Made by a program: the position numbers and the translations under genes. 64,000 nucleotides of DNA. It comes from Haloarcula sp. CBA1129. Its GTDB lineage: Archaea; Halobacteriota; Halobacteria; Halobacteriales; Haloarculaceae. The notes under the pieces are model-generated. The model saw nothing but the letters and a program-made list of their open reading frames with translations. It ran no database searches and was not told where the DNA came from. How positions within the stretch are numbered: position 1 is the first letter of the stretch; every line of letters begins with the position of its first letter. The DNA is taken from positions 248,001 through 312,000 of the forward strand of contig NZ_RKSM01000003.1 of NCBI RefSeq assembly GCF_008729015.1, in the 5' to 3' direction. Below are positions 4,563 through 22,088 of this stretch, piece by piece.

Positions 4563-5795
4563 ATGCCATCCGTCAGTCTCGACAGCGAACGGTTCAGACG
4601 GCGCTTCGACACATTCAACGAGATCGGCGCGACAGAAGCGGGCGGCGTCAATCGTCCCAGCCTCTCCGACGCGAACAAGGATGCTCGCGATACGCTCGTC
4701 GAGTGGTTCCGCGAGGCCGGGCTGGAAGTCCGTATCGACACGATGGGCAACATCTTCGGTCGCCGAGACGGGGCTGACGGCGACGCCGCGCCGGTCCTGT
4801 TCGGGTCGCACATCGACAGCCAGTACAACGGCGGGCGGTACGACGGCGTTATCGGCGTCCTCGGCGGGCTGGAGGTCATCGAGGCGTTCAACGACGCCGG
4901 CGTGACGACCGAACGCCCACTAGAGGTGGTCGCTTGGAGCAACGAAGAGGGCGTACGCTTCCAGCCGGATATGCTCGGCAGCGGCGTCTACTGTGATATC
5001 TTCGACCTCGACTACGCGTACGAGCGCGAGGCCAAGGACGGGAAGCGCTTCGGCGACGAACTCGAACGCATCGGCTACAAGGGCGAAACACCCTGTGAAG
5101 CGGACGATATCCACTGCTACTTCGAGATGCACGTCGAGCAGGGGCCGTTTCTCGAACAGCAGGACATCCCCGTCGCCGCCGTCGAGGGCGTGTTCGGCTT
5201 TTCGTGGCTGAATGTCACCTTCGAGGGACAGGCCAACCACGCCGGGCCGACGCCGATGGATATGCGCCACGACGCCTTCGTGGCGACGGCGGACGTGACG
5301 CGAGCCGTCCGGCGGATTACAGCAACCGAGGGGACAGACCTCGTTGGTACGGTCGGCAGCGTCGACGTGTGGCCGAACGCTATCAACGTCATCCCCGAAC
5401 GCGTTGAGTTCACGCTCGATTTCCGCTCGTACGACGACGCAGTCGTCGACGCGGCCGTCGAACAGATCAGAGCGGAGGTCGCCCACGCGGCCGAGCGCGA
5501 AGGGCTCGAATACGAGATCGAGGAGATCATGCGGGTCGACGCGGACCCGTTCGACCAAGACTGCATCGACACCGTCGTCGAGGCCGCCGAGACAGTCGGC
5601 TGTGAGTACACGCGGCTAGTCAGCGGCGCGGGCCACGACGCGAACTACCTCAACAAGATGACCCCAACGAGCATGATTTTCGTGCCGAGCGTCGACGGGA
5701 TCAGCCACCGCGAGAGCGAGTTCACCGATTGGGAGGACATCGTCACCGGGACCGAAGTACTGCTGAACGCAGTCCGGACGAAGGCCGCCGAGTGA
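4563..5795 (+). CDS. Zn-dependent amidase of the hydantoinase/carbamoylase family
   Basis: 410 aa from the ATG at 4563; an in-frame ATG at 4509 is rejected because it overlaps the operator and promoter. This is an M20-type metallopeptidase fold. The metal region GSHIDSQYNGGRYDGVIGVLGGLE, the acidic pair in WSNEEGVRFQP, and HVEQGPFLE are those of N-carbamoyl-L-amino-acid hydrolases and allantoate amidohydrolases. GFSWLNVTFEGQANHAG is the dimerisation-domain segment, and SGAGHDANYL holds the last metal ligand region. These enzymes release ammonia and CO2 from carbamoylated amino acids or ureides such as allantoate. Next to xanthine dehydrogenase-like genes, an allantoate-type role in purine breakdown is attractive, but the substrate cannot be fixed from sequence. 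Confidence 0.88.
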   Translation: MPSVSLDSERFRRRFDTFNEIGATEAGGVNRPSLSDANKDARDTLVEWFREAGLEVRIDTMGNIFGRRDGADGDAAPVLFGSHIDSQYNGGRYDGVIGVLGGLEVIEAFNDAGVTTERPLEVVAWSNEEGVRFQPDMLGSGVYCDIFDLDYAYEREAKDGKRFGDELERIGYKGETPCEADDIHCYFEMHVEQGPFLEQQDIPVAAVEGVFGFSWLNVTFEGQANHAGPTPMDMRHDAFVATADVTRAVRRITATEGTDLVGTVGSVDVWPNAINVIPERVEFTLDFRSYDDAVVDAAVEQIRAEVAHAAEREGLEYEIEEIMRVDADPFDQDCIDTVVEAAETVGCEYTRLVSGAGHDANYLNKMTPTSMIFVPSVDGISHRESEFTDWEDIVTGTEVLLNAVRTKAAE

Positions 5796-5831
5796 ACGGC
5801 CGCGTTCTCAGAGAAGATGTGTCACAGGTTT

Positions 5832-5860
5832 GCCACACGGCACACGTTGACTGGCGTGTC
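5832..5860. promoter_or_regulatory. Candidate operator B upstream of the first molybdenum hydroxylase
   Basis: GCCACA (5832-5837), 17 nt, then an imperfect second half CGTGTC (5855-5860). GCCACACGG here also occurs at the phnD and amidohydrolase sites, in the same orientation relative to the gene. A separate TGTGGC half-site is at 5904-5909, and a TATA-like CATATATG follows at about 5949-5956. The surrounding 80 bp is unusually rich in GTGT/CACA words. Confidence 0.35.
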
Positions 5861-6004
5861 TGTCGCAGGTGTGTCAGTATAGTGTCTTGTAGTGTCCTCT
5901 GCCTGTGGCTTCGTCTGGCAACATTGCAATCAGGTACCTGTGAACCATACATATATGGGATAGTGTTGCACACTTGTTCACTAACAGGCGTGTGTCCGTA
6001 GCGC

Positions 6005-6583
6005 ATGCCGAAAACTGGAGGATACGCTGTGGATATTGAACTCACAATCAACGGCGAGCGGACAATAGTCGAAGCCGGGTCGGAGACGGACCTGGCGACG
6101 GTTTTGAGACAACACGGCTACATCGGCGTCAAGTGCGGCTGTGACGGTGGGACCTGCGGCGCGTCGAAGGTGTTCGTCGACGGCGAGGTGCGCATGGCCT
6201 GCGGGATGACTGCGGCGGACGCTGACGGAAGTGAGGTACAGACTGTCGCGGCGCTTGGGACACAGGACGACCTGCACCCGGTCCAGCAAGCGTTCGTCGA
6301 CAACTTCGCCGTCCAATGTGGATTCTGTATCCCGGGGATGGTGATTCAGGCGGTGGCGTTGCTGGATTCGAACCCCGACCCAACCGAACGGGAGGTCCGG
6401 GAGGCACTGGACGACAACGTCTGTCGGTGTACCGGCTATCAGAAGCCAGTCGAGGCCGTTCTAGACGCAGCAGATCGAATGCAGGGCGAGCAGTCGGTGG
6501 CCGCAGACGGCGGCCAGCCGGCCAGTTTGGGACCCCGTGGAGCCGACTCGACAGACTGCTGTGGAGGTGGCTGCGATGAATAA
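6005..6583 (+). CDS. Molybdenum hydroxylase 2Fe-2S subunit 1 (CoxS/XdhA-like), unusual cluster ligands
   Basis: 192 aa. A plant-type ferredoxin domain (about 1-85) is followed by the C-terminal 2Fe-2S helical domain (QCGFCIPGM ... CRCTGY, complete), as in small subunits of xanthine dehydrogenase/CO dehydrogenase-type enzymes that pass electrons from the molybdenum centre. In the first cluster loop the usual C-x4-C-x2-C reads C46-x4-C51-x2-Ser54, with Cys66 as fourth ligand and an extra Cys44. The family's third ligand is therefore Ser here. A tail of about 35 residues ends in DCCGGGCDE, absent from typical family members. The gene overlaps the next by 8 bp, so the two are surely co-translated. 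Confidence 0.92.
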   Translation: MPKTGGYAVDIELTINGERTIVEAGSETDLATVLRQHGYIGVKCGCDGGTCGASKVFVDGEVRMACGMTAADADGSEVQTVAALGTQDDLHPVQQAFVDNFAVQCGFCIPGMVIQAVALLDSNPDPTEREVREALDDNVCRCTGYQKPVEAVLDAADRMQGEQSVAADGGQPASLGPRGADSTDCCGGGCDE

Positions 6584-9026
6584 CGACGACGAGACAGCCA
6601 AAGCTGACGGGGGCACGGCCTCCCAATCAGAGACCGTCGAAGACGAGCGACACGAGGAACACCCACTGGAGTGGGACGAACCGGAAAACAACGACAAGGC
6701 CCCCGACGAGCGCGACAGCGTCTCTCACCGGGCCGAGAAGTACGACGACCGAAAGCTCGTCACCGGACAGGCGAAGTACACCGCCGACTATGAGGAGCGG
6801 TATCCGGACCTCGCGTACGCAGCGGTCGTCCGGAGCGAGATTCCACACGGCCGCGTGACCGGTATCGATGCGAGCGCAGCCGAGGCGATGGACGGCGTCG
6901 AAGTCGTCCTGACACCTGAATCCGACGCGGTTCCGAACGGAAAATACACGAGCGCCGGGCAGTCCTATCCCGAACCGAGCCCGTGGGACATGCGGGTGCT
7001 GAACGAGCACGTCCGCTACATCGGCGACCCGGTTGCCGCCGTCGCAGCCGAAGACCGGGCGACCGCGACTGCCGCCGTCGAGGCTATCGAGGTGTCCTAC
7101 GAAGAGGACGACTACGTCACCGACCCCGAGGAAGCCTTCGACGGGGACGCACCCCAGCTGTTCGAGGACGGCGAGGTCGAAAACGAAATCGTCGGCTACG
7201 ACTACGACCGCAACCGGATGGCCCATATCGAGGGGGAACTCGGAGATGTGGACGCGGCGCTCGACGGCGACACCCACGTCCACGAGACCGAGTGGGAGAC
7301 GATTCGCCAGTCCCACGCGAACGTCGAGAAACACACCTCGCTTGCGTATACGGACGAAGATGACCGCCACGTCCTCATCACCAGCACGCAGGTGCCAAAC
7401 CACACGCGCCGCCAGCTCGCCCACCTGTTCGACATTCCAATCCGCGATATCCGGGTGACGAAGCCGCGGGTCGGCGGCGGTTTCGGCGGCAAGCAGGCGA
7501 TGGTCGTCGAGCCGATTCCGCTCGCGCTGTCGCTTGCCACCGACCGCCCGGTCCTCTACGAAGCCAGCCGCCAAGAGGAGTTCTACGCGATGCGCTCGCG
7601 CCATCCGATGAAAGTCCGGGCGAAGACGGCCGTGACCGACGACGGCGACATCGAAGCCATCGACCTGTACGCGCTGTCGAACACTGGCGCGTACGGCAGC
7701 CACGGCATGACCGTCGCGGGCAACGTCGGAAGCAAGCCACTGCCGCTGTACTCGAAAGTCCCCAACGCCCGCTTCGAGGCCGACATCGTCCACACGAACA
7801 CGCCACAAACCGGGGCGATGCGGGGCTACGGCGCGCCACAGGGCACGCTCGCGCTGGAAGGCCATCTCGACGAGGTGGCCCGCGATCTCGGTCTCGACCC
7901 TATCGAGTTCCGCCGACGGCACCACATGGAAGTCGGCGACCTCGACGAAATCGCGGGGATGATGGGCGGCGAAGGCGCAGAGCGTCGAATTCGGTCGTGT
8001 GGCCTCGATGAGTGCATCGAACGCGGGAAAGAGGCTATCGGCTACGACGACCTCGAACAGCCCGAAGAAGACCATCTGCATCGCGGCATCGGGATGGCGC
8101 TGTCCGCGCAGGGAACCGGCGTTGCCGGCGACGAACTCGGGGCCGCCCAGCTGATGATGAACGAGGACGGGAGCTTCCACTTGCAGGTCGGCGGCGTCGA
8201 TATCGGGACGGGTGCTGACACGGCGTTCCTCCAGATTGCCGCGGAAGTACTGGGCTGTGACGAGGACGACATAATTGTCAAATCCTCCGATACGGACGTG
8301 ACGCCCTTCGACTACGGTGCGTACGCCTCCTCGACGACATACATCAGCGGGATGGCCGTGAAGAAGGCCGCGGAAGATGCGAAAGCACGAATTCTCGACT
8401 GGGGGTCCAAGCTGCTCGACGAACCGGTCGAGAAGCTGGAAACGGGCAACGGGACGGTGTACAGCGAGACCAGCGGCGATTCAGTCGCGCTCGAAGAAAT
8501 CGGCTACGAAGCCGCGTACGGCGACGACGAACGCGAACACATCCTTGGGAAGGGGACTCACTGCACCGACGAGAGTCCCCCGCCCTTCGCCGCGCAGTTC
8601 GCCGACGTGACGGTCGACGAGACCACCGGCGAGTTCGATGTGCACAAACTGGTTGTCGCGGTCGACTGTGGCGTCGCCATCAACCCCGGTATGGCCGAGG
8701 GGCAGATCGAGGGCGCGAACCACATGAGCTACGAGATGGCCGTCAGCGAGGGCATCACGCTCGACGACGAAGGACGAGCGGAAGTAACGGACTTTGACGA
8801 GTACGGGCTGCCGTCGGCGACCGAGACGCCGCCTATCGAGTCGATTCTAGTCGAGACCCACGAACCAACCGGTCCCTTCGGCGCGAAGTCGGTTGCCGAA
8901 GTCCCGACCAACACGGTCCCACCGGCGCTGTCCAACGCCGTCCGTGACGCCGTCGGCGTCCGTATCCGTGAAATGCCGATCACCGCCGAAAAAATCGCGT
9001 CGAAACTGGACGAGCGTACGGACTGA
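6576..9026 (+). CDS. Molybdenum hydroxylase molybdopterin-binding subunit 1 (xanthine dehydrogenase family)
   Basis: 816 aa from the ATG at 6576, which overlaps the small-subunit gene by 8 bp; the in-frame start at 6537 would intrude further. An acidic N-terminal extension of about 60 residues precedes the aldehyde oxidase/xanthine dehydrogenase a/b hammerhead domain (from KLVTGQAKYTADY). The two Mo-pterin domains follow: the GGGFGGKQ loop near residue 300 and FGAKSVAE near residue 771, where the Glu is the family's catalytic base. It should hydroxylate a purine- or aldehyde-like substrate. No FAD (CoxM-like) subunit is nearby. SelD, YqeB and YqeC nearby suggest a labile selenium ligand at molybdenum. 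The exact substrate is unknown. Confidence 0.92.
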   Translation: MNNDDETAKADGGTASQSETVEDERHEEHPLEWDEPENNDKAPDERDSVSHRAEKYDDRKLVTGQAKYTADYEERYPDLAYAAVVRSEIPHGRVTGIDASAAEAMDGVEVVLTPESDAVPNGKYTSAGQSYPEPSPWDMRVLNEHVRYIGDPVAAVAAEDRATATAAVEAIEVSYEEDDYVTDPEEAFDGDAPQLFEDGEVENEIVGYDYDRNRMAHIEGELGDVDAALDGDTHVHETEWETIRQSHANVEKHTSLAYTDEDDRHVLITSTQVPNHTRRQLAHLFDIPIRDIRVTKPRVGGGFGGKQAMVVEPIPLALSLATDRPVLYEASRQEEFYAMRSRHPMKVRAKTAVTDDGDIEAIDLYALSNTGAYGSHGMTVAGNVGSKPLPLYSKVPNARFEADIVHTNTPQTGAMRGYGAPQGTLALEGHLDEVARDLGLDPIEFRRRHHMEVGDLDEIAGMMGGEGAERRIRSCGLDECIERGKEAIGYDDLEQPEEDHLHRGIGMALSAQGTGVAGDELGAAQLMMNEDGSFHLQVGGVDIGTGADTAFLQIAAEVLGCDEDDIIVKSSDTDVTPFDYGAYASSTTYISGMAVKKAAEDAKARILDWGSKLLDEPVEKLETGNGTVYSETSGDSVALEEIGYEAAYGDDEREHILGKGTHCTDESPPPFAAQFADVTVDETTGEFDVHKLVVAVDCGVAINPGMAEGQIEGANHMSYEMAVSEGITLDDEGRAEVTDFDEYGLPSATETPPIESILVETHEPTGPFGAKSVAEVPTNTVPPALSNAVRDAVGVRIREMPITAEKIASKLDERTD

Positions 9027-9124: not shown

Positions 9125-9691
9125 ATGCAAATCGAACTGGAAGTGAACGGCGAGACGGAGACGTTCGAGGCGACCAAATCCGACTCCCTCCTCGATGTAT
9201 TGCGAGCGAACGGATACACCGGTGCGAAGCGGGGGTGTGACACCGGTGCGTGTGGATTCTGTACGGTGCACGTCGACGGCGAGCCAGTGAAATCCTGCGT
9301 CGAGCCGGTGCTGAACGTACAGGACGCATCCGTCGAGACAATCGAAGGACTGGGCGAACAGGACGACCTCCACCCGGTACAGCAGGCGTTCGTCGACAAC
9401 ACCGCGCTGCAGTGTGGCTTTTGCATCCCGGGGATGATAATGCGCTCGACAGCGCTGCTGGAGACGAACCCGGACCCCACTGAGAAAGAAGTCCGGGAAG
9501 CGCTGTCGGACAATCTCTGTCGGTGTACCGGCTACAAGAAAATCGTCGAAGCGGTGCTAGACGCCGCCGAGCGGCTGAACGACGAGACAGCCGTCGCCGC
9601 CGACGGTGGGACGGCAGTGGATAGCGACAGCACCGCCACTGTGACCGAGTGTTCACTCGGCGGATGCGATTGCATGGAGGGCGAGCAGTGA
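9125..9691 (+). CDS. Molybdenum hydroxylase 2Fe-2S subunit 2
   Basis: 188 aa from the ATG at 9125; an upstream ATG at 9092 lies too close to the TATA-like TATTTA near 9069. Both clusters have complete ligands: C38-x4-C43-x2-C46 and C58 in the ferredoxin domain, then CGFC and CRCTGY in the helical domain. It is clearly paralogous to the subunit at 6005, but with the normal third Cys. It also carries a non-family C-terminal tail, here ECSLGGCDCMEGEQ with Cys176, Cys181 and Cys183. The GTGA overlap with the following large-subunit gene indicates coupled translation. It accepts electrons from the second molybdenum subunit; the outlet (ferredoxin or membrane) is unknown. Confidence 0.92.
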   Translation: MQIELEVNGETETFEATKSDSLLDVLRANGYTGAKRGCDTGACGFCTVHVDGEPVKSCVEPVLNVQDASVETIEGLGEQDDLHPVQQAFVDNTALQCGFCIPGMIMRSTALLETNPDPTEKEVREALSDNLCRCTGYKKIVEAVLDAAERLNDETAVAADGGTAVDSDSTATVTECSLGGCDCMEGEQ

Positions 9692-12168
9692 GCGATTCCG
9701 ACCGGGCGCGGGAGACGGGCGAGCGGCCCGACAGGACAGGGGTGGAGGGGACAGACCCCACCGACGCCGATACGGAGTCAGGGGCGAACGCAGCACGCGA
9801 ACCCGACCGGAAGCCCGAATCCGAGCGCGACGCCATTACCGTGGACGAAGAGAAAGACGACGCGCGGAAAATCGTCACCGGCGATGCCCGGTATACGGCG
9901 GACTACCGCGACCGGTTCCCGGACCTCGCCCACGGGAAAGTGGTTCGCAGCGACATCGCCCACGGCTACGTCGAGTCAATCGACACGAGCGAAGCCGAGG
10001 CGATGGATGGCGTCGACGCTGTCATCACGCCGTTCGACGACGTGGTTCCGGACAAGCTGTACTCCAGTTCGGGCCAGTCCTATCCCGAGCCGAGCCCGTG
10101 GGATCTGAAAGTACTCCGCGAACACGTCCGCTTCGTCGGCGACCCGGTCGCAGCCGTGGCGGCCGACGACCCGGAGACAGCAGACCGAGCCGCCCGGAAA
10201 ATCGATATCGAGTACCGTGAGCTGGATGCCGTCTTCGACCCTGAAGCGGCTTTCGACGCGGATGCACCACAACTGTTCGAAGCCGACGACGTGGAGAACA
10301 AGCAGTCGGGCGCGGACTACAACCGAAACCTCGAATCGCACTTCGAGGGAGAGCTCGGTGACGCGGATGCGGCGTTTGAGCGGGCGGACAACGACGAGGA
10401 GCGGCACGTCATCCAGACAGAGTGGGAGACGCCGTATCAGTCCCACTGCGTCCCGGAACCACACACAACCATCGCCTACACGGACGAGGACGACCGACAT
10501 ACGTTCATCACGGCAACGCAGGTCCCCTTTCACACCCGCCGCCAGATAGCACACCTGTTCGACGTGCCCATCCGCGACGTGCGGGTGAAGAAGCCGCGTA
10601 TCGGCGCGGGGTTCGGATCGAAACAAGAGATGGCAATCGAGCCTGTCGCGTTCGCGCTGCACCTCGCGGCCGGCCGACCGGTCAAACTGGAGATGAGCCG
10701 TCAAGAGGAGTTCACCGCACTCCGCTTTCGGCACCCGATGCAGATGCAGATGCGGACCGCAGTCACCGACGAGGGCGACATCGAGGCGATGGACCTCTAC
10801 ACGCTGTCGAACTCGGGGGCCTACGGGACCCACGGCATGACCGTCGCGAACAACGTCGGAACGAAGCCACTTCCCCTTTACCCCCGAGTCCCGAACGTCC
10901 GCTTTTCGGGGGACGTGGTCCACACGAACCTCCCGATGGGCGCGGCAATGCGGGGTTACGGCGCGCCACAAGGCCACTTCGCTGTCGAAGCACACATGGA
11001 CGAGGTGGCCCGCCGCCTCGACTTCGACCCCATCGAGTTCCGCCTGCGGAACGCGGTCCGTGAGGGCGACCTCGACCAAAGCGTCGCCATTCTGAAAGAC
11101 GGCGACCGATTCGCCCGAGAGATCCGCTCCTGTGGCATCCGCGAGTGCATCGACCGCGGCAAGGCAGCTATCGGCTACGACGACTTAGAGCAACCGGACG
11201 AAGAGCACCTGCACCGCGGCGTCGGCATGGCGCTGATCGCACAGGGCAGTGGCGTCGCGGGGAAGGAACTCGGCGCGGCGCAGGTCCAGATGAACGAGGA
11301 CGGGAGCTTCCACCTGCAGGTCGGCGGCGTCGATACCGGGACGGGCGCAGACACGATGTTCTCCCAGATCGCTGCCGAGGTGCTGGGCTGTGCTCCCGAA
11401 GATATCGTTGTCATCGCCGCCGACACCGACCTGACGCCCTTTGACTACGGCGCGTACGCTTCCTCGACGACATACATCAGCGGCCGCGCGGTCAAGAACG
11501 CCGCCGAGGACGCCAAAGAACGGCTCCTAGAGTGGGGGTCGAAGCTACTCGACGAGCCGCCCGAGGTGCTCGAAACTGGCGACGACGGCGTGTACAGCGA
11601 GCGGACCGAAAACCGCGTGTCGCTGGACGAAATCGGCTACGAAGCCACCTATGGCGACGACGAGCGCGAACACATCCTCGGGGACGGGAACCACTCGACC
11701 GACGAGAGCCCGCCGCCATACGGCGCGCAGTTCGCTGACGTGACAGTGAACGAAGAGACCGGCGAATACGAACTCAACAAACTAGTGTTCGCCGCCGACT
11801 GTGGCGTCGCCATCAACCCCGCGCTGGTCGAGGGGCAGATCGAGGGCGGCGAGCACATGAGCCTCGAATACGCTACCAGCGGCGACCTCACCTTCGACGA
11901 CGAGGGGGCCCCCGAAGTGCTCGGGTTCCGCCAGTACGGGATGCCGCGAACGACGGACCACCCCGAGATGGAGACGATTCTCGTTGAGACTCACGAACCC
12001 ACGGGTCCGTTCGGCGCGAAGTCTATCGCGGAACTCCCGACGAACGGCGTCCCGCCGGCGCTCTCGAACGCGATTCGCGACGCCGTCGGCGTTCGGCTGG
12101 CAGAGCTACCGTTTACCGCGGACGACCTGAAGACGGCACTCGACAAGCGGTCTGCTGACGATAGGTGA
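9688..12168 (+). CDS. Molybdenum hydroxylase molybdopterin-binding subunit 2 (xanthine dehydrogenase family)
   Basis: 826 aa from the GTG at 9688, whose GTGA overlaps the previous stop; the longer reading from 9649 is rejected. It has a very acidic N-terminal leader of about 55 residues, then the a/b hammerhead domain, the Mo-pterin loop as GAGFGSKQ near residue 307 (GGGFGGKQ in paralogue 1) and FGAKSIAE near residue 777 with the catalytic Glu. Similarity to the 6576 product runs end to end, so the pair arose by duplication of a small-large cassette. The changed loop and active-site surroundings suggest a different or partly different substrate. This is typical of purine catabolism, where successive ring hydroxylations occur. 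Confidence 0.92.
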   Translation: MSDSDRARETGERPDRTGVEGTDPTDADTESGANAAREPDRKPESERDAITVDEEKDDARKIVTGDARYTADYRDRFPDLAHGKVVRSDIAHGYVESIDTSEAEAMDGVDAVITPFDDVVPDKLYSSSGQSYPEPSPWDLKVLREHVRFVGDPVAAVAADDPETADRAARKIDIEYRELDAVFDPEAAFDADAPQLFEADDVENKQSGADYNRNLESHFEGELGDADAAFERADNDEERHVIQTEWETPYQSHCVPEPHTTIAYTDEDDRHTFITATQVPFHTRRQIAHLFDVPIRDVRVKKPRIGAGFGSKQEMAIEPVAFALHLAAGRPVKLEMSRQEEFTALRFRHPMQMQMRTAVTDEGDIEAMDLYTLSNSGAYGTHGMTVANNVGTKPLPLYPRVPNVRFSGDVVHTNLPMGAAMRGYGAPQGHFAVEAHMDEVARRLDFDPIEFRLRNAVREGDLDQSVAILKDGDRFAREIRSCGIRECIDRGKAAIGYDDLEQPDEEHLHRGVGMALIAQGSGVAGKELGAAQVQMNEDGSFHLQVGGVDTGTGADTMFSQIAAEVLGCAPEDIVVIAADTDLTPFDYGAYASSTTYISGRAVKNAAEDAKERLLEWGSKLLDEPPEVLETGDDGVYSERTENRVSLDEIGYEATYGDDEREHILGDGNHSTDESPPPYGAQFADVTVNEETGEYELNKLVFAADCGVAINPALVEGQIEGGEHMSLEYATSGDLTFDDEGAPEVLGFRQYGMPRTTDHPEMETILVETHEPTGPFGAKSIAELPTNGVPPALSNAIRDAVGVRLAELPFTADDLKTALDKRSADDR

Positions 12169-12268: not shown

Positions 12269-12640
12269 ATGGCGTACATCGGGTTTCTGCTGACAGGCGG
12301 TCCCTTCGACAGCGAGCGGTGGCGGACCGCCTACGAACTGGGGCGGGCGGCGCTGGATCAGGGCCACGAGGTGAGCTACTTCCACTACCTCGACGGCGCG
12401 CTCGTCCCCGTCGCGGACCAGACGCTGCCCGGCTGTTCGGATAGCGGGCTGTACGACGAAATGCCGACCGAGAAGTTCCAAGAACTCATCTCGGATGGGG
12501 CGGAGGTCATCTGTTGCGGTCTCTGCGTCGACGCCCGCGGCATCGATGCCGACGCGGACTACCCCGACGGCGTCGAGGTGGGCCTGCTTCCCGACCTCGC
12601 GGACATCGTCGGCGAGGCGGATCGGGTGGTTTCGCTATGA
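12269..12640 (+). CDS. DsrE/TusD-like sulfur (or selenium) relay protein with active-site Cys
   Basis: 123 aa from the ATG at 12269, 30 nt after the TATA element; an upstream ATG at 12170 lies before the promoter. It has a DsrE/F/TusD fold: a GFLLTGGPFDSERW start and a conserved CCGLCVDARGI motif near residues 89-99, containing the Cys that in DsrE and TusD accepts persulfide. It is first in a tightly overlapping operon with a second DsrE-like protein, a DsrH-like protein and the XdhC-YqeB fusion (ATGA junctions). TusA, its usual partner type, is encoded beside selD at 16124. A role in handing sulfur or selenium to the molybdenum hydroxylases is inferred from this context. Confidence 0.8.
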   Translation: MAYIGFLLTGGPFDSERWRTAYELGRAALDQGHEVSYFHYLDGALVPVADQTLPGCSDSGLYDEMPTEKFQELISDGAEVICCGLCVDARGIDADADYPDGVEVGLLPDLADIVGEADRVVSL

Positions 12641-12990
12641 AACGAGATGTCGTCGTGTTGCTCACCCGCGCTCCGTACGGCCGGGTCCACATCCCCGAGG
12701 GTCTTCGCGCGGCCCGTGGTGTCGCGGCCGGGTTCGACCTGCACGACGTGACCGTCATATTCACTCAAGACGGTGTGTACGGCGCTCGGGAAGCTGTCGA
12801 CCGCGAGGCCCTCAATATGAGCGGGCACGTCGCCGACTTGGTGGAGCAGGGCGGACAGATGATCGCGGATGCGGGGGCGATGGCCGAGCGCGGCGTCGAC
12901 GAGGGTGAAATCGCCGACGACGTGGCAGTCTGGTCGGGCGACCGCATCACCGCCCGCATCCACGACGCCGAACGGACACTGGACTTCTGA
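12637..12990 (+). CDS. DsrE/DsrF-like protein (TusC-like)
   Basis: 117 aa, starting at the ATG inside the ATGA that ends the previous gene. The Rossmann-like DsrE fold is suggested by DVVVLLTRAPYGRVHIPEGLRAA and VTVIFTQDGVYG. It contains no cysteine, so it would be a structural rather than catalytic member of a heteromeric TusBCD/DsrEFH-like complex. The whole order (DsrE with Cys, DsrE without Cys, short DsrH) parallels tusD-tusC-tusB and dsrEFH. Longer readings beginning at 12514 run through the upstream gene and are ignored. Confidence 0.78.
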   Translation: MKRDVVVLLTRAPYGRVHIPEGLRAARGVAAGFDLHDVTVIFTQDGVYGAREAVDREALNMSGHVADLVEQGGQMIADAGAMAERGVDEGEIADDVAVWSGDRITARIHDAERTLDF

Positions 12991-14832: not shown

Positions 14833-15873
14833 TTAGCGACGAACTTCTTCGATGGTTGGGTCTGCGAGCGTGACGCCGCGCCCGGCAGTGACACGCCCCA
14901 CGTCGCGGTAGAACACGCCGACATCGTCGAACGCTGATTCAACGGCGTCGGTCGCAGTCGGCGGGACAGCAACGAACAGTCCGCCGCTGGTCTCCGCGCT
15001 CTCTCCCTCGGTTAGCCCGTATCCGAAAAGCGTCGAGAGGGCGGGTGTTCCCGCGATGACCGGGAGGTGTGTGAGTTCGATACCGACGTTCGAGCGGGCA
15101 GCCACCACGCGGCTCTGCCCCGCGAGGCCGAAGCCGGTAATGTCGGTCGCTGCAGTCGCGTGTTCGCGGCATGCGAGTGCCGCGTCCCGGTTCGGCGTCG
15201 TCATCCACGCGATGGCCTCTGAAGCAATGCTGTCGAGTGGGCGGTCAGTGGCGTCGGTAACTGTGCCGATGAACTGCTCGTCGGTCACGCGGGACGCACC
15301 CATAGCCGGCTGTGTCCCGAGCGGTTTGGTCAGATAGAGGCGGTCGCCGGGGCTGGCTCCCCGCGATGTGAGCAGGGCGTCGGGACGCGCCGTCGCCGAA
15401 ATAGCGCCGCCGGCGAACGGCCACGGACTCATAATCGTGTGGCCGCCGGCGATGACGCCATCTATTGTGTCCAGCGTGTCAGCCATGCCAGAGAGAATCT
15501 GGGCCGCGCTGTCGGTCAGTTCTCGTGGAAGTCCGAGGACGACCAGACAGTCGACGTTCTCGACGGCACCTGTAGCGAAGGCATCACTGGCAGCGTTACA
15601 GGCGGCTACACGGCCGAAGTCGTACGGATCGTCGACGATGGGCGTGAAGAAATCTACCGTCGAGACCAGCGCGAGGTCGTCACTCAGTCGCCGCGCAGCG
15701 GCGTCCTCGCCGACGCCGAACAGCAGCGCGTCGCTGTCACTGGTGAGGCCGGCATCGGCCAGCAGCGAGTCGAGGTCACTTTGCCCGACCTTGCAGGAAC
15801 AGCCGTGGAGTTCCGTATACTCTGTCAACCGAGTCACCTCGTCATCACCGTCAGTCTCCGCGTTACGACCCAC
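14833..15873 (-). CDS. selD: Selenide, water dikinase (selenophosphate synthetase)
   Basis: 346 aa from a GTG at 15873, 2 nt after the stop of the TusA-like gene; earlier in-frame codons lie inside that gene. The GCSCK motif (Cys25, Cys27, Lys28) matches the GCGCK active site of SelD with Cys, not selenocysteine, as first catalytic residue. GVGEDAA and VDFFTPIVDDPYDFGRVAACNA are the glycine/aspartate-rich ATP and metal segments, and GGHTIMSPWPFAGGAISA follows. It makes selenophosphate from selenide and ATP. No selenocysteine or selenouridine genes are visible, so it is probably an orphan SelD serving the molybdenum hydroxylases. It is convergent with the XdhC-YqeB gene, 17 bp apart. Confidence 0.93.
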   Translation of the reverse strand: MGRNAETDGDDEVTRLTEYTELHGCSCKVGQSDLDSLLADAGLTSDSDALLFGVGEDAAARRLSDDLALVSTVDFFTPIVDDPYDFGRVAACNAASDAFATGAVENVDCLVVLGLPRELTDSAAQILSGMADTLDTIDGVIAGGHTIMSPWPFAGGAISATARPDALLTSRGASPGDRLYLTKPLGTQPAMGASRVTDEQFIGTVTDATDRPLDSIASEAIAWMTTPNRDAALACREHATAATDITGFGLAGQSRVVAARSNVGIELTHLPVIAGTPALSTLFGYGLTEGESAETSGGLFVAVPPTATDAVESAFDDVGVFYRDVGRVTAGRGVTLADPTIEEVRR

Positions 15874-15875: not shown

Positions 15876-16124
15876 TCAGGCCTCCGAAAGCGACGCCATC
15901 TCGGTCACCTGAAGTTCGAGTTCGAACTCGTCGGACTTCCCAGCAGTCTCTGCGGTCGTCACGTCGATGCCGTGAGTTGTACACATTCGCCGAAGGTTCT
16001 CCTCGGCCGGTGGGTAATCACCTCGAACAACGAGCGTCTCGCCGGTGTCGAGGTCCGAAAGCGCCTGCCGGACAATGAGTGCCGGACGGGGACAGATTTC
16101 ACCACGAACGTCTACGCGGGGCAT
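15876..16124 (-). CDS. TusA/SirA-like sulfur or selenium carrier protein
   Basis: 82 aa. The motif GEICPRPAL (Cys11) is the signature of TusA/SirA proteins, whose Cys carries a persulfide. It is first gene of a two-gene operon with selD, 2 nt apart. In bacterial selenium clusters the YedF protein joins a SirA-like and a DsrE-like domain. Here the SirA-like part sits beside selD and the DsrE-like parts beside xdhC-yqeB, which makes a selenium-related relay likely, though plain sulfur transfer is not ruled out. The promoter region is shared with the divergent yqeC gene. Confidence 0.85.
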   Translation of the reverse strand: MPRVDVRGEICPRPALIVRQALSDLDTGETLVVRGDYPPAEENLRRMCTTHGIDVTTAETAGKSDEFELELQVTEMASLSEA

Positions 16125-16218: not shown

Positions 16219-16998
16219 ATGCAACTGGCTGCTGCGCTGGGCCTGCGTTCTAGCGCCGTTGTCGCCTTTGTCGGGGCCGGCGGGAAGAAGACCGCGATGG
16301 GACAGTTGACGGTTGAAGGAACCGACGAGGGGTACGACGTGGGGTACACGACAACGACGGCGATGCCACCACCGTCTGACCTGCCGCTGACGCTCACCAG
16401 TCCGGACGAGTGGCGGGCCGACCTCGAAGCACGCGAACCGCCAGTCGCCTTCGCCCGCGAGAGGGTCGTCGACCCGGCGCGAGTCGACCGGAAGGTTCGT
16501 GGGTTCGAGGTGAGTGTGGTGGAACAGCTATCCGACGCCGGACTGTTCGACTGGCTCCTCGTCAAGGCTGACGGTGCACGCAAGCGGGAGTTCAAAGCGC
16601 CCGGTGATGGGGAGCCAGTCGTACCGAGTACAGCGAGCCACGTTGTCCCGGTCGCATCGGTCGCCGCAGTCGGTGAGCCTCTGACGACGGATGTGGTGCA
16701 TCGGCCGAATCGGGTGGCTGACATCACCGGCCTCCATATAGGCGACGCGATTACGCCGGAAGCTGTCGGGACAGTGCTCACGCATCCCGAGGGTGGCCTC
16801 CGAAACGCGCCGGCGGAGGCGTCTGTGATACCGCTAGTCAACAAAGCGGATACCAAAACACAGCAGCGTACCGCCAGAGACGTACTCACGCACGCACTGT
16901 CACAGACCGGGCGGTGTTCTCGGGGAGTCATCACGTCGTTCACGTCGGCTGTCTGTGAAGTGGTTTCAGCGACGACTGTACAGGAGGAGCAGCGATGA
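16219..16998 (+). CDS. yqeC: YqeC-like selenium-dependent hydroxylase accessory protein
   Basis: 259 aa from the ATG at 16219, about 30 nt after a TATA-like CTATTTCT; longer readings from 16045 overlap the divergent tusA-like gene. VVAFVGAGGKKTAMGQL is the nucleotide-loop-like start, and VKADGARKREFKAP with EPVVP is the family's most characteristic block. YqeC is known by association with YqeB, SelD and molybdenum hydroxylases, with undefined chemistry. A GCCACA half-site (16165-16170) lies just before the TATA element. The stop overlaps a 17-codon minigene that leads into the MocA-like gene. Confidence 0.85.
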   Translation: MQLAAALGLRSSAVVAFVGAGGKKTAMGQLTVEGTDEGYDVGYTTTTAMPPPSDLPLTLTSPDEWRADLEAREPPVAFARERVVDPARVDRKVRGFEVSVVEQLSDAGLFDWLLVKADGARKREFKAPGDGEPVVPSTASHVVPVASVAAVGEPLTTDVVHRPNRVADITGLHIGDAITPEAVGTVLTHPEGGLRNAPAEASVIPLVNKADTKTQQRTARDVLTHALSQTGRCSRGVITSFTSAVCEVVSATTVQEEQR

Positions 16999-17048
16999 CA
17001 AACTTCGAACGAACAGACGGAATCGTTGCGATGCGAAGGCGATTATGA
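16995..17048 (+). CDS. 17-codon minigene bridging yqeC and mocA-like genes
   Basis: ATG at 16995 overlaps the yqeC stop (ATGA), and the TGA at 17046-17048 overlaps the ATG of the MocA-like gene (ATGA). It encodes MTNFERTDGIVAMRRRL. The perfect double overlap suggests it passes ribosomes from one gene to the next, or is what remains of a lost gene. No family is recognisable and the peptide may have no function of its own. Confidence 0.35.
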   Translation: MTNFERTDGIVAMRRRL

Positions 17049-17662
17049 GTGGTCAACACCGGCCCAAAGTCGGGGGCGTCATCCTCGCCGCTGGACGGAG
17101 TTCACGGTACGAGGCGGGTAACAAACTACTGGCAACCATCGATGGGACGGCGGTCGTCCGACGGGTAGCCGAAAGCGCCAGCGAGGCATCCCTGTCGGAC
17201 ATTGTCGCTGTCCTCGGATACGAAGACGTGGCCGTCGCCGAGGCGCTGGATGGTCTCTCGCTTTCGCTTCGTCGTAACGACGATTACACAGCCGGCCAGA
17301 GTACGTCAGTTCGACACGGGGTCGACTACGCACAGGAATACGGCTGGGACGCCGCTTTATTCTTGCTTGGCGATATGCCGTTCGTACGGGCTGCTACTAT
17401 CGAGGAGCTTATCCAAGCGTACCGGACAGGAACAGCAACCATCGTGGTTCCCAAACACGAGGGGGCCCGGGGCAACCCCGTGCTGTTCGACGGCTGCCAC
17501 TTCGATGCGCTCGCCTCGGTCTCCGGTGACCGCGGCGGTCGAGATATCATCGAAACCACTGAAAAGACAGCGTTCATCGAGGTGGAGGACCCCGGAATCC
17601 ACTGGGATATCGACACCAATGCGGACTTCACCGATTTCAGGGACCGCCGAGATGGCCTGTGA
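17045..17662 (+). CDS. MocA-like molybdenum cofactor nucleotidyltransferase
   Basis: 205 aa from the ATG at 17045; an earlier in-frame start at 16955 lies within yqeC. GGVILAAGRSSRY followed by NKLL is the nucleotide-binding signature of MobA/MocA-type transferases, LGDMPFV carries the metal Asp, and GARGNPVLFDG is typical of MocA/YgfJ. MocA attaches CMP to molybdopterin to give the cytosine dinucleotide cofactor used by xanthine dehydrogenase-family enzymes. Its place after yqeC fits cofactor finishing for the two hydroxylases. GMP transfer (MobA-like) is possible but less likely in this context. Confidence 0.87.
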   Translation: MSGQHRPKVGGVILAAGRSSRYEAGNKLLATIDGTAVVRRVAESASEASLSDIVAVLGYEDVAVAEALDGLSLSLRRNDDYTAGQSTSVRHGVDYAQEYGWDAALFLLGDMPFVRAATIEELIQAYRTGTATIVVPKHEGARGNPVLFDGCHFDALASVSGDRGGRDIIETTEKTAFIEVEDPGIHWDIDTNADFTDFRDRRDGL

Positions 17663-17670: not shown

Positions 17671-17694
17671 TGCTGATGGTGGAACACCCGACTG

Positions 17695-18075
17695 ATGAAA
17701 CGGACTATCAGCACGACCGATGCACCCGATGCGGTCGGCGCATACAGTCAGGCAACGACAAACGGCTCGCTCGTGTTCACCGCGGGCCAGATTCCGATGA
17801 CACCCGATGGCGACCTGCTGGACGATGAACCGATAGCGACGCAGGCGGAACAGGCACTATCGAACGTCGAAGCGGTGCTGGCTTCGGAGGGGTTGGAGAT
17901 GAGCGATGTGTTGAAAGTGACCGTCTATCTCGACGACATCGGCGATTTCGAGTCGATGAACGACACGTATGCCGGCTTCTTCGACGAAGAACCGCCGGCC
18001 CGGAGCGCAGTCGAGGTCGCAAGTCTGCCAAAAGGTGTTGGCGTCGAAATCGAGGCCATCGCAACGAGCGACTGA
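17695..18075 (+). CDS. RidA family reactive intermediate deaminase
   Basis: 126 aa, the usual RidA/YjgF length. AVGAYSQAT at the start, VFTAGQIPM, KVTVYLDD and PARSAVEVASLPKGVGVEIEAIA at the end cover the family. The conserved Arg (in PARSAVE) that binds the carboxylate of enamine/imine intermediates and the terminal Glu are present. RidA hydrolyses reactive 2-aminoacrylate-type intermediates; relatives occur in pyrimidine and purine breakdown operons. The gene sits between the molybdenum cofactor genes and the ABC transporter and has its own TATA element. Confidence 0.9.
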   Translation: MKRTISTTDAPDAVGAYSQATTNGSLVFTAGQIPMTPDGDLLDDEPIATQAEQALSNVEAVLASEGLEMSDVLKVTVYLDDIGDFESMNDTYAGFFDEEPPARSAVEVASLPKGVGVEIEAIATSD

Positions 18076-18099
18076 GGCCGACAGACACTGCCGTCGTGA

Positions 18100-18120: not shown

Positions 18121-18160
18121 GCACACAAGTTTCAAGCCCGGCGGCTTGCAGTAACACGTA

Positions 18161-19036
18161 ATGCGACCGACGAGGCGTGGATTCATAGGTACAGCGGCAG
18201 CGCTCTCGCTGTCGGGCTGTCTTGGAAGTACTACGACGCCGACGCTGACCGTCGGTGTCGTGCCCGATGTGGATCCCGATACCGCCATCGAACGGAACAC
18301 CGAACTCGCAACGTATCTGTCGACCGAACTCGACGTCGAGACCGAGCTACGTACAGCGGCTGACTATGCCGGGATGGTGCAGGCGATGGTAGCGGAGCAG
18401 GTCGATATCGCCTACTACGGCGGCGTGTCCTACATCCTCGCGCATCGTCGAGCAGGCGCAAAGCCAGTCGTCGTCGGGTCACGGAACGGACAGACGGAGT
18501 GGCACTCCGTGTTCATCGCCCCGTCAGAAAGCGGCCTGACAGGGATGGCCGATGTGGTCGAAACTGCAAGCGAAACCGAACTGGTGTTCGGCGACCCGCT
18601 CTCGACCAGTGGGACCGTGATGCCGACGTATCATCTTCAGACAGAGTACGGTCTGGACACCGACGCATTCGCGCAGGTCACCCACGTCGGCGCGCACGAT
18701 GCGACCGCAGAGACAGTCGGTCGAACCAGCGGCGTCGTCGGTGCGCTAAATGCCCGCATCTACGACAGACTACGCGCGGACGACGCCGTGGAAGGGGTGC
18801 GAGAGCTATGGCGGACTCCCGGCTTCCCAGATTACCCCTGGGCCGTCGCTCCGTCGCTTGAAGTGACGACAGCAGAGGCTGTTCGGACAGCGTTTACCAC
18901 TCTCGATTCAAAGGGTCGAACGGACATTCTCGACCAGCAGGCCGTCGACCGATACGTCGAGGTAGACCATGGCGCGTTTACTTCGCTGGAAACGGCCGTC
19001 GAGATGGCTGGCATCGAACAGGGAGGCGACGAGTGA
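18161..19036 (+). CDS. phnD: PhnD-type ABC transporter substrate-binding lipoprotein
   Basis: 291 aa. A Tat-like start (R5-R6, short hydrophobic run, lipobox Cys20) predicts a lipid-anchored extracellular protein. The mature part is PhnD-like: [43 protein letters not shown], and [17 protein letters not shown], the anion-binding Ser/Thr loop. Known PhnD proteins bind phosphonates or phosphite. Related PhnD-like proteins next to selD in other genomes have been proposed as selenium oxyanion binders. Here the neighbours are selD and molybdenum hydroxylases upstream, while phnM lies far off at the right edge, so the ligand is open. It overlaps phnC by GTGA. Confidence 0.87.
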
Positions 19037-19854
19037 GGAACAAGCGTATGGAGCGACCCAAGGGAAGACGGTCAGGCCAGCAGCTTGTTTTCGACGGCGT
19101 CACCAAGCGATTCGGTGGGGAAGTTGCACTACAGGATGTCTCGCTCAGCCTCGATGCCGGTGAACGGGTCGCCGTTGTCGGTCCGTCAGGTGCAGGTAAG
19201 ACCACGCTCCTCAGACTGGCAGCCGGTGCATTGCGACCCGATACAGGGACGGTGACATTCGACGGGAGCAGCATTACTGGTTCGACCGCGACGCTTGCGT
19301 ACCAAGGGGAGACACTCGTGGACCGGCGGACGGCACTGTCGAACGTCCTCACTGGGCGCCTCGGAGCGCTGTCCCGGCTCCGTGGCTTCATCGAACCACT
19401 GCTGCCACGGCACCCAGAGCCAGCCCTCGAACGACTCGATGCAGTCGGGCTAGCGGAACGTGCCGATGTCCCCGCAAAATCGCTGAGTGCTGGCGAGCGC
19501 CAGCGGGTCGCCTTTGCACGGGCGCTCATGCAGGACGCAGCAGTCGTACTGGCCGACGAGCCGACAGCGAACCTCGATCCGAACTCCCGTCGAAACGTTA
19601 TCGACGTGCTCAACGCTGCCCTCGACCGGGAACTGCTGGTCACCGCCCTCCACGAGGTCGATTTGGCACTGGAGCACTTCGACCGAATCGTCGGCGTGGC
19701 CGACGGTCGAGTCAGGTTCGATACGCCCGCACCAGCGGTGACCAACGACCAGCTCGACGCCCTGTTCGCGGCAGGCGCATCCACGCCGGATCCCGACGCG
19801 AAGCAGGCGCGGCCAGAGAAAGAGAGCGACGGTCCGGTTCCGCGCTATGTCTGA
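19033..19854 (+). CDS. phnC: PhnC-type ABC transporter ATP-binding protein
   Basis: 273 aa from the GTG at 19033 within the GTGA that ends phnD; an ATG at 19048 is the alternative. Walker A is GPSGAGKTT near residue 55, the Q-loop is YQGE, the signature [15 protein letters not shown] and Walker [13 protein letters not shown], with the switch His in ALHEVD. It powers import of the ligand captured by the lipoprotein. Residues from about 245 form a charged tail. The 3' end overlaps the permease gene by 8 bp. Sequence type is phosphonate/phosphite-like; the true substrate depends on PhnD. Confidence 0.88.
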
Positions 19855-20725
19855 GGAATATAGCGGCCCGGACGCGACCCGGCACCCTGATACGGGGCTG
19901 TCGAAACACCAGCTCACGACACTGCTGGGCGGGTGTTGCATCTTGATTGCTGCGGCGTGGGTCGCCGAAGTGGATCTGATGGCCCTGTTCGCTGCCGGTG
20001 CTCGTGAGCAGATGGCCGCCTTCATCGCTGAGGGCGTCCCACCGGAGACGAGCCGTGACTACCTGCTGGGACGTGGCCTTCGTGATGGCCTGCTGTGGGC
20101 AGTTGTGGAGACCCTAGCTATCAGCGTCGTCGGAACCACGCTTGCTGTCACGTTCGCCGTTCCACTCGGTCTGACCAGTGCCGCCACCGTCACCCATCGC
20201 GGCCCGTTGTACAGAAACGCCTCGGCCGGCCGTATCGCTGCCGGACGCGGTCTCTATCACACCAGTCGTACCGTACTCAGCTTTCTACGCTCCGTTCCCG
20301 GTATCGTCTGGGGGTTCCTGTTCGTTACCGCTATCGGCCTCGGCCCGTTTGCGGGCGTTCTCGCGCTTGCGGTCCACAACGCCGGTGTTCTGGGGAAACT
20401 GTACGCCGACTTTCTCGAAGACACGGACCCGATGACGACAGAGGCGGTCGCCGGGAGCGGCGCGACACGCCTTCAGGCGGTCTGTCACGGGATGGTCCCG
20501 CAGGTGACGCCGACAATCGCCTCGTACACGCTGTACCGCTGGGAGTGTACCATTCGGTCGGCCGCTATCCTCGGGTTCGTGGGCGCGGGCGGCATCGGAT
20601 ACTATCTCGTTATCACCATTCAGCGGTTGCAGTACGGGAAACTCTCGACCGCCATCCTCGCCGTGTTTGCGCTGGTCGTTACGAGCGACTGGCTCGGATC
20701 GCGGTTGCGGACGCGGCTCGGCTGA
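19847..20725 (+). CDS. phnE: PhnE-type ABC transporter permease
   Basis: 292 aa, overlapping phnC by 8 bp. Several transmembrane segments are visible: after residue 20 ([17 protein letters not shown]), near 80-110 ([21 protein letters not shown]), and at 145-175, 215-240 and near the C-terminus. The binding-protein-dependent transport permease loop is recognisable around [21 protein letters not shown], where the EAA-type helix contacts the ATPase. It completes a DCE-order single-permease transporter. It is convergent with the amidohydrolase gene, 28 bp apart. Confidence 0.87.
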
Positions 20726-20753
20726 CGCTTGGGCGAAAACCGACAGGTCTGCC

Positions 20754-22088
20754 TCAGGGCTTCTGTTCCTGTGCGGACTCCCGTTCGTCTTCGAGGTCCA
20801 TCTCAAGCCCCATTGTCGAGGCCTTCGAACGAACGGCGTCGGCGTCGATAGTAGTTACTTCGCCGTGCTCCATGAGCACGTTCCCGTCGACCATCGTGAA
20901 GCGGACGTCGTCGCCGTGGGCCGCAAACACCAGATGGGAGAGCACGTCGTGCAACGGCGTCGCTCGCGTGAGGTCCGTATTCAGACCGACGATGTCGGCG
21001 CGCCACCCCTCCCGAATCGCGCCGAGTTTGTCGAAGCCAGCGGCTTTCGCGCCGTTGCGCGTCGCCATCTCGAAGATTTCGGCTGCGGGCGTCACCGTCG
21101 GGTCTAGCTGGTCGACCTTCTGGAGCAGGCTCGCCTGTCGCATCTCGGTGAACGCATCGAGTGTGTTGTTACAGGGCGGCCCGTCGTTGCCGATGGCGAC
21201 GTTGATACCGCGGTCGCGGTAGTCCCAGATCGGCGCGATACCGCTGGCGAGTTTCATGTTCGAGGAAGGGCAGTGGGTGACGTGCGTCCCCGTCTCTGCG
21301 AGGACCTCACGCTCGCTCTCGTCGGTCCAGACGCAGTGTGCAAGGACGACATCCTCGCCGGTGAGACCCACCTCGTCGAGCCAGTGGATGTTTCGCATTC
21401 CGGTGTCCTCTTTGACCGTCTCGATCTCGCTCTGGTTCTCACTGGCGTGTGTGTGGATGCGGACGCCCTCGTATTTGTCCACGAGCTCACGTGCGCCACG
21501 GAGACAGGCCTCGCTACAGGAGACGGCAAAGCGGGGGGTGACGGCGTACCGAATCCGGTCGTTGTAGGCACCGTGGTACTGCTGAATGAGCCGCTCGGAC
21601 TCGTCCAGTGCGGCCTGCGTCTCCTCTAGCAGGCCATCCGGCGAGCGCTGGTCCATCAGTACCTTGCCGAGAACGCCGCGGATACCGATCTCGCCCGCCG
21701 CTTCGAAGGCCCGGTCCGCATGCGCGACCGACAGGTGGTCGATACAGGTCGTGGTCCCGCTTTCGATCATTTCCAGATAGCCCAGCTTCGCCGCAATCTC
21801 CATCTCCTCGGCGGTCAAGGAGGCTTCCATCGGCAGAATGTAGTCGAACAGCCAGTCAAGCAGTTCCGTGTCATCGGCAATGCCGCGGCCGAGACTCTGC
21901 ACCGAGTGGATGTGACCGCCGACGAGTCCCGGCAACAGCACGTCGTAGGACTGGTGTTCGTGGTCGGCGTACTGCGCTTCGAGTTCGGTCCGGGAACCCA
22001 CAGCCTCGATGCGGTCTCCGGAGACAACGACCGCCCCGTCCTGCAGGACAGTCTCAGAATCTGCAACAACAGTCCCAGTCAGTAGCAT
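20754..22088 (-). CDS. SsnA/TRZ-ATZ family aminohydrolase
   Basis: 444 aa. Amidohydrolase superfamily: GLVGGHIHSVQSLGRG contains the metal HxH, HTHASEN the third metal-ligand segment, HCVW the next, and GNDGPPCNN the final Asp region. Overall layout is that of TRZ/ATZ deaminases, which include guanine, 8-oxoguanine, S-adenosylhomocysteine/methylthioadenosine deaminases and SsnA. SsnA genes occur in bacterial YqeB/YgfK purine clusters, so deamination of a purine feeding the hydroxylases is likely. Adenosine-type substrates are an alternative. A TATA-like TTTATGTA (minus strand, 22116-22109) lies just upstream of the ATG at 22088. Confidence 0.87.
   Translation of the reverse strand: MLLTGTVVADSETVLQDGAVVVSGDRIEAVGSRTELEAQYADHEHQSYDVLLPGLVGGHIHSVQSLGRGIADDTELLDWLFDYILPMEASLTAEEMEIAAKLGYLEMIESGTTTCIDHLSVAHADRAFEAAGEIGIRGVLGKVLMDQRSPDGLLEETQAALDESERLIQQYHGAYNDRIRYAVTPRFAVSCSEACLRGARELVDKYEGVRIHTHASENQSEIETVKEDTGMRNIHWLDEVGLTGEDVVLAHCVWTDESEREVLAETGTHVTHCPSSNMKLASGIAPIWDYRDRGINVAIGNDGPPCNNTLDAFTEMRQASLLQKVDQLDPTVTPAAEIFEMATRNGAKAAGFDKLGAIREGWRADIVGLNTDLTRATPLHDVLSHLVFAAHGDDVRFTMVDGNVLMEHGEVTTIDADAVRSKASTMGLEMDLEDERESAQEQKP

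Follow-up and report, generated by a model that had tools for sequence, protein, structure and literature searches.

A candidate selenium-dependent island for purine and urate degradation on a haloarchaeal megaplasmid

Which process is served by a selenophosphate synthetase, SelD, that is encoded among two molybdenum hydroxylases and several amidohydrolases in a haloarchaeon? The question is raised by a stretch of 64,000 nucleotides from Haloarcula sp. CBA1129 (contig NZ_RKSM01000003.1, positions 248,001 to 312,000; G000:C3:248001-312000 in our numbering), referred to here as the window. The contig, of 528,641 bases in a genome of 4.05 Mb, is not the main chromosome, and in relatives the same locus lies on megaplasmids, such as pNG700 of H. 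marismortui and the 405.8-kb plasmid of H. hispanica. The locus is considered here, with moderate confidence, to be a purine and urate degradation island that is built around two selenium-dependent molybdenum hydroxylases and follows a reductive, yanthine-type route. Judged from gene content, a role in selenium-dependent purine catabolism is well supported, and the direction is probably reductive (the yanthine route) rather than oxidative via allantoate.

An orphan selD was proposed to serve molybdenum hydroxylases by Haft and Self in 2008 (PMC2276186) and constitutes a third selenium trait (PMC2432076); pNG700 was one of its two founding cases, for which HyuA-, SsnA- and YedF-like genes were listed (PMC2276186), and Lin et al. 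(PMC5322559) place every archaeal user of the selenium cofactor in the Halobacteriales. The island shares with that trait SelD, an XdhC-fused YqeB, YqeC, a MocA-like protein and molybdenum hydroxylases, as well as the lack of selenocysteine (Sec) and selenouridine machinery. One fixed sample of 292 Halobacteria genomes was compared, with counts uncorrected for relatedness; families were taken from NCBIfam and Pfam, and scores are written as bits/curated cut-off. SelA (at its cut-off), SelU and SepSecS are encoded in none of the 22 island-bearing genomes, that of the window included, and the sole tRNA-Sec match over threshold among them, in H. vallismortis (G051), is a tRNA-Ser(TGA) inside a tRNA array. 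Because SelA, SepSecS, SelU and tRNA-Sec are missing from these 22 genomes, selD can be regarded as an orphan serving molybdenum hydroxylases, and the interpretation of Haft and Self holds across haloarchaea. SelD retains the Cys and Lys of its active site (HGCSCK), whose role we take to be that described for E. coli SelD, and the XdhC-YqeB fusion is 40 % identical to E. coli YqeB over its full length. The present picture differs from that of 2008 in its span of 6 genera among 292 Halobacteria with perfect co-occurrence, in the presence of DsrEFH and an F420-type gene, neither of which was discussed there, and in that the catabolic pathway was not yet known at the time.

YqeB and SelD exceed their cut-offs in 22 of the 292 genomes each, and the same number holds for the SsnA-like gene, for DsrF (fragments in genome G073 aside) and for the orthologue of an F420-type luciferase-family (LLM) oxidoreductase (at least 86 % identity, with the next group at 48–54 %). 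All five are intact in the same 22 genomes, which represent 6 genera and 5 families. This bears on the possibility that the hydroxylases are ordinary sulfido-molybdenum enzymes and that SelD, TusA and DsrEFH handle sulfur, with no use of selenium. TusA and DsrEFH are indeed known as sulfur carriers, and a sulfur-related function has been suggested for the SelD-like proteins of some archaea (PMC4210487). However, no genome of the sample has SelD without YqeB or YqeB without SelD, all other haloarchaeal matches to SelD stay far below its cut-off of 125 bits (the best at 97), and YqeB and YqeC are markers of the selenium trait (PMC2276186, PMC11448449), so that a sulfur-only role appears very improbable. 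Selenium is presumed to be present in both hydroxylases.

The DsrEFH, XdhC-YqeB, SelD, TusA and YqeC core is found in all 23 loci that could be viewed with full flanks, and gene order is kept in about 30 haloarchaeal loci, which, together with the occurrence of the markers in the very same 22 genomes out of 292, excludes a chance grouping. The island seems to move between lineages and also to be lost as a whole. Mobility is suggested by the YqeB of Halostella G053, which is 86–88 % identical to its Natrialbaceae counterparts and 83 % identical to that of the other island-bearing Halostella genome, and by the existence of two island types in Natrinema (71–76 % identity between and 84–94 % within types). 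The Haloarcula genome G227 lacks every island marker. In the otherwise island-free genome G073, fragments of DsrF and YqeB abut (G073:C10:121117-121537) and are probably the remains of a decayed copy.

The preliminary description of the window placed two molybdenum-hydroxylase pairs, XdhC-YqeB, SelD, a TusA-like protein, YqeC, a MocA-like protein, RidA, a carbamoylase and a deaminase at or inside 4563-22088. Open reading frame (ORF) and family searches recovered all of them, although the DsrE-DsrF-DsrH triad and a PhnD-PhnC-PhnE-like transporter had been overlooked. The expected absence of Sec and selenouridine machinery elsewhere in the genome was confirmed here and in 21 island-bearing relatives. 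The joining of an orphan SelD/YqeB/YqeC set to purine enzymes was likewise borne out, and the loci of relatives further encode adenine deaminase, xanthine-type permeases and hypoxanthine phosphoribosyltransferase (Hpt). On the other hand, the pathway is not complete within that interval. The functional unit begins outside the window, at C3:238761, and also takes in the gene at 2697-4412; directly upstream, C3:238761-247860 encodes SsnA-like and HyuA/allantoinase-like amidohydrolases, a threonine-synthase-like pyridoxal phosphate (PLP) enzyme, the LLM oxidoreductase and an ATP-binding cassette (ABC) system. The true SsnA-like gene is located there, 8–9 kb from the window and beside the HyuA-like, threonine-synthase-like and LLM genes, while the gene at 20754-22088, once labelled SsnA/TRZ-like, scores far better as a 5'-deoxyadenosine deaminase (Table 1). 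That deaminase is 31 % identical to E. coli GuaD and is present in all 23 fully flanked loci. In other genera the LLM, D-aminoacylase and M20 carbamoylase genes adjoin and are followed by the hydroxylases and maturation genes; the D-aminoacylase and M20 genes are neighbours in most loci. Outside Haloarcula, where counts are lower bounds because the flanks viewed stop about 20 kb from YqeB, the loci also encode adenine deaminase (11/12), two types of NCS2 permease (10/12 and 11/12), NpdG (9/12) and a second TusA (11/12), with MoeA, CofC, CofH or Hpt in some; these additions are visible in the public annotation of Haladaptatus, Haloterrigena and Natrinema records.

In the reductive pathway that Li et al. 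showed for E. coli and C. difficile in 2025 (PMC12507026), urate is converted to yanthine by XdhD and dearomatised by YgfK or UacX, the rings are opened by SsnA and HyuA, the 2-ureido group is removed by YgeW or, in C. difficile, by the D-aminoacylase UacY, the 3-ureido group by YgeY, and diaminopropionate is lysed by YgeX. The island appears to hold a candidate for each of these steps. The two clusters share an XDH-type molybdenum enzyme, SsnA-like, HyuA-like, D-aminoacylase, M20 and PALP genes, and, as in C. difficile, the FAD subunit is missing; they differ in that the haloarchaeal cluster is archaeal, has an F420-type LLM gene and no YgfK, and draws its M20 and PALP members from subfamilies other than those of YgeY and YgeX. 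E. coli HyuA aligns with the HyuA-like AmH1 at 31 % identity over 455 aa (4e-58), and E. coli SsnA with the SsnA-like AmH2 at 27 % over 451 aa, each pair, like the two YqeB proteins, being mutual best matches between the two clusters. The D-aminoacylase, whose closest PDB match is an N-acyl-D-glutamate deacylase, belongs to the family of C. difficile UacY; comparison with the E. coli cluster gave no match to YgeW in the island. The PDB relatives of the M20 enzyme hydrolyse N-carbamoyl-amino acids and beta-ureidopropionate, which makes it suited to the 3-ureido group.

The proposed sequence of events is as follows. Purines would be imported and then deaminated by the enzyme at 20754-22088 and, in relatives, by adenine deaminase. 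The hydroxylases may act in both directions between xanthine and urate and may also reduce the latter to 2,8-dioxopurine (yanthine), trading electrons with a carrier that, because there is no FAD subunit, is expected to be ferredoxin-like. Yanthine would be dearomatised by the F420-type LLM enzyme, and its two rings opened by the SsnA-like and HyuA-like amidohydrolases. The D-aminoacylase could then take off the 2-ureido group and the M20 enzyme the 3-ureido group, leaving 2,3-diaminopropionate to be split into pyruvate and ammonia by the threonine-synthase-like PLP enzyme, with RidA presumably clearing 2-aminoacrylate. RidA suits a PLP lyase that releases 2-aminoacrylate.

The pair retained in all 23 fully flanked loci is molybdenum hydroxylase 1 (CoxS1/CoxL1). 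No PF00941 protein is encoded in the whole genome of the window, and C. difficile XdhD also lacks an FAD subunit (PMC12507026). CoxL2 carries an acidic residue in the column of XdhD Glu606 in three MAFFT runs. Assigning either CoxL to XdhD or XdhA was rejected, as the identity gaps are too small and the Glu606 loop is alignment-dependent. The C-termini of CoxS1 and CoxS2 are Cys-rich (CCGGGCDE; CSLGGCDCMEGEQ). As selenium carriers these tails were dismissed, being largely restricted to Haloarcula and not kept elsewhere.

Several observations weigh against a reductive urate island. Similarity does not tell XdhD from XdhA for either CoxL, the result for the Glu606 loop of CoxL1 depends on the alignment, and both proteins fall under the cut-offs of the named selenium families (Se_dep_XDH TIGR03311, 277–298/830; Se_sel_red_Mo TIGR03313, 492–502/1102). 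AmH2 has SsnA as its best family, yet stays under the cut-off (260/455 and 286/444). The M20 enzyme has no clear similarity to YgeY and is not its orthologue, and the PLP enzyme resembles YgeX at the superfamily level only, exceeding the thrC cut-off (231/167). No YgfK homologue is found in the island (UacX, PF01180, was not searched), and uricase co-occurs with the island in two of the 22 genomes. Haloarcula species are, moreover, usually cultured aerobically. As several parts lie under curated cut-offs, the proposal concerns a functional resemblance to the reductive urate pathway and does not claim orthology for every part.

Part of this evidence could be accommodated by oxidative purine catabolism, the kind implied when deamination, ring hydroxylation and ureide hydrolysis were first combined into a single pathway. 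In such a route the hydroxylases would make urate for conversion to allantoin and allantoate, with the HyuA-like protein as allantoinase and the M20 enzyme as allantoate amidohydrolase. The M20 gene does exceed the cut-off of an allantoate-amidohydrolase subfamily, the scores of AmH1 are 270 (allantoinase) and 256 (dihydropyrimidinase), each under the named equivalog cut-off, and the two uricase-bearing island genomes fit. However, members of this M20 subfamily are also encoded in pyrimidine-type loci, so that the allantoate label carries little weight. Uricase was found neither in the window genome nor in 20 of the 22 island genomes (HpxO-type urate hydroxylases were not searched), which weakens the route. 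It also leaves the linked D-aminoacylase, SsnA-like, PLP and LLM F420-type genes unexplained, as did the first proposal, which did not account for the HyuA-like gene either. Of that proposal the selenium–purine link is supported and the oxidative direction is not; we regard oxidation via allantoate as unlikely. A mutual exclusion of island and uricase was also considered, and the counts (2/22 versus 26/270) gave no clear signal.

The substrate itself might be another N-heterocycle, such as nicotinate, a pyrimidine, a hydantoin or a plant alkaloid, with the purine genes incidental. Substrates of molybdenum hydroxylases are hard to infer from sequence, the closest solved structure here is 4-hydroxybenzoyl-CoA reductase, and relatives of the LLM and M20 enzymes occur in pyrimidine-like loci. 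Against this, relatives repeatedly encode adenine deaminase, Hpt and a xanthine permease that exceeds the TIGR03173 cut-off, and the SsnA/HyuA/D-aminoacylase set fits urate chemistry, which makes a non-purine substrate rather improbable.

Within the reductive reading, the LLM enzyme, encoded upstream of the window, would occupy the place of the YgfK/UacX reductase. The protein is closest to F420-dependent methylene-tetrahydromethanopterin reductase (Mer), and the F420-linked genes NpdG, CofC and CofH appear in the loci of relatives. In Chloroflexota, an F420-type luciferase-family enzyme beside SsnA has been predicted to replace the reductase, in that group only, and C. difficile UacX is a homologue of PydA (PMC12507026). 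In three other haloarchaeal plasmid loci (L098:8745-15595, L097:6720-16117 and L096:10773-13047), LLM relatives (50 %) overlap or abut M20 relatives (45–49 %). Two of the three also encode a dihydropyrimidinase-like protein, an omega-aminotransferase and a CoA-acylating methylmalonate-semialdehyde dehydrogenase (539/449 in L098), and one a cytosine permease; their layout is that expected of a reductive pathway for pyrimidines in which the LLM enzyme fills the PydA slot. Given that UacX is a PydA homologue, this placement offers independent support for the LLM enzyme as the urate-pathway reductase.

The second addition to the known trait is the triad DsrE-DsrF-DsrH, whose consecutive genes precede xdhC-yqeB, the last overlapping it by four bases. 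The triad stays under all curated TusD, TusC and TusB cut-offs (21/89, 29/94 and 24/49), and two of its three members reach Pfam DsrE. It shares with the TusBCD/DsrEFH sulfur relay the E-F-H order and the DsrE/DsrF Pfam domains, but differs in falling under curated cut-offs, in the lack of conserved cysteines in DsrF and DsrH, and in its linkage to SelD/YqeB instead of DsrAB or MnmA. TusA leads a tusA-selD gene pair and has YedF (TIGR03527) as its closest curated family, under the cut-off (Table 1); it aligns with residues 1–79 of E. faecalis YedF at an hhalign probability of 93 %, whereas the match of DsrE to YedF is weak. The DsrE-like domain of YedF carries a CGxC motif (PMC5322559), which the CCGLC of DsrE resembles despite weak sequence similarity. 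In E. faecalis, SelD-YedF-YqeC-YqeB are encoded in a single locus together with RidA and an NCS2 permease, a set shared with the haloarchaeal loci, including a TusA-domain protein between selD and yqeC. There YedF is a TusA-DsrE fusion, whereas haloarchaea have separate TusA and DsrE and an added DsrF and DsrH; neither selenocysteine lyase SclA nor DUF3343 is encoded in those haloarchaeal loci that were viewed. TusA and DsrEFH may thus represent the YedF function, split and extended, and our literature search found no paper linking DsrEFH to SelD.

SelD would then activate selenide, TusA and DsrEFH would form a dedicated selenium/sulfur relay in the position held by YedF in bacteria, and XdhC-YqeB would place the labile ligand on the molybdenum cofactor with the assistance of YqeC and MocA. 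The fullest version of the proposal, an archaeal reductive urate pathway with an F420-dependent dearomatising reductase as a selenium-dependent megaplasmid module that moves horizontally, and TusA-DsrEFH as the dedicated selenium carrier feeding SelD/XdhC-YqeB, is put forward tentatively, its chances being somewhat below even. The reductive urate pathway has been described as confined to anaerobic bacteria (PMC12990295) and, if the proposal is correct, would be extended to archaea. The long-known haloarchaeal orphan selD would gain a concrete pathway, DsrEFH would be a missing part of molybdenum-cofactor selenium chemistry, and Haloarcula would offer genetically tractable hosts for studying how labile selenium reaches the cofactor. 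In haloarchaea, F420-linked LLM enzymes may also do the work of PydA-type reductases, for purines as well as for pyrimidines.

Table 1. Island and accessory genes inside the window (window positions; scores as bits/cut-off)
Feature	Position	Strand	Evidence or remark
Two BMP-family ABC substrate-binding lipoproteins	169–2628 (169–1311, 1507–2628)	+	Haloarcula-only accessory
D-aminoacylase-family amidohydrolase, UacY-like candidate for 2-ureido group removal	2697–4412	-	phmmer best PDB match 3gip/3giq, 1e-62
M20 hydantoinase/carbamoylase-family hydrolase, candidate for 3-ureido group removal (YgeY slot)	4563–5795	+	NF006769 499/452
CoxS1, 2x[2Fe-2S] subunit, Mo-hydroxylase 1	6005–6583	+	family search
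CoxL1, molybdopterin subunit, Mo-hydroxylase 1	6537–9026	+	XdhD 35 %, XdhA 34 %; NF043082 654/780; Pfam MoCoBD_1/2
CoxS2, 2x[2Fe-2S] subunit, Mo-hydroxylase 2	9125–9691	+	family search
CoxL2, molybdopterin subunit, Mo-hydroxylase 2	9649–12168	+	XdhD 36 %, XdhA 35 %
DsrE (TusD-like)	12269–12640	+	Pfam DsrE 72.8/22.7; invariant CCGLC; sole Cys-bearing triad member
DsrF (TusC-like)	12637–12990	+	Pfam DsrE 41/22.7; no conserved cysteine
DsrH (TusB-like)	12993–13238	+	TIGR03011 24/49, Pfam DsrH 23.3/24.4, both under cut-off; no cysteine
XdhC-YqeB fusion, predicted Mo-cofactor sulfuration/selenation chaperone	13235–14815	+	TIGR03309 365/220; XdhC_C 124/30
SelD selenophosphate synthetase	14833–15873	-	TIGR00476 271/125; GTG start
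TusA-like (SirA-like) carrier, CPRP motif	15876–16124	-	YedF TIGR03527 N-terminus 35/110; two bases upstream of selD
YqeC	16219–16998	+	TIGR03172 200/73
MocA-like nucleotidyltransferase, molybdopterin cytidylyltransferase type	17045–17662	+	TIGR03310 148/186, under cut-off
RidA	17695–18075	+	TIGR00004 154/106
PhnD-PhnC-PhnE-like ABC transporter	18161–20725 (18161–19036, 19033–19854, 19847–20725)	+	PhnE 226/217
Purine-type amidohydrolase deaminase, 5'-deoxyadenosine deaminase family	20754–22088	-	NF005557 707/522; SsnA TIGR03314 186/455

The transport genes are less constant than the core. The BMP-family lipoproteins are found in 11 of 11 Haloarcula loci and in none of 12 others. The PhnDCE-like system, a putative importer of selenium oxyanions, has a PhnD-like protein that scores 164/250 for the selenate substrate-binding protein family TIGR04553, under its cut-off. 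About two thirds of the loci retain the whole system and about a third lack it or have it broken, so that it appears to be dispensable or replaceable.

Beyond the island, a NadE-like NAD synthetase at 22541-23335 (TTG at 23335) lies beside a small S17e-like gene, NadE being kept only in Haloarcula loci; both were rejected as island members and are mostly Haloarcula plasmid neighbours. A tRNA-Cys called by ARAGORN at 23795-23885 (91 bases) is antisense to a conserved hypothetical ORF, has no Rfam support and is probably false. The region 38924-61561 resembles a surface-polysaccharide locus, with a polysaccharide synthesis protein, a glycosyltransferase, an asparagine-synthase-like protein and CBM proteins, as well as three proteins of more than 400 aa without a Pfam match. 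A sensor-regulator of the bacterioopsin-activator type, combining response-regulator, GAF, BAT and HTH_10 domains, is encoded at 27679-30843.

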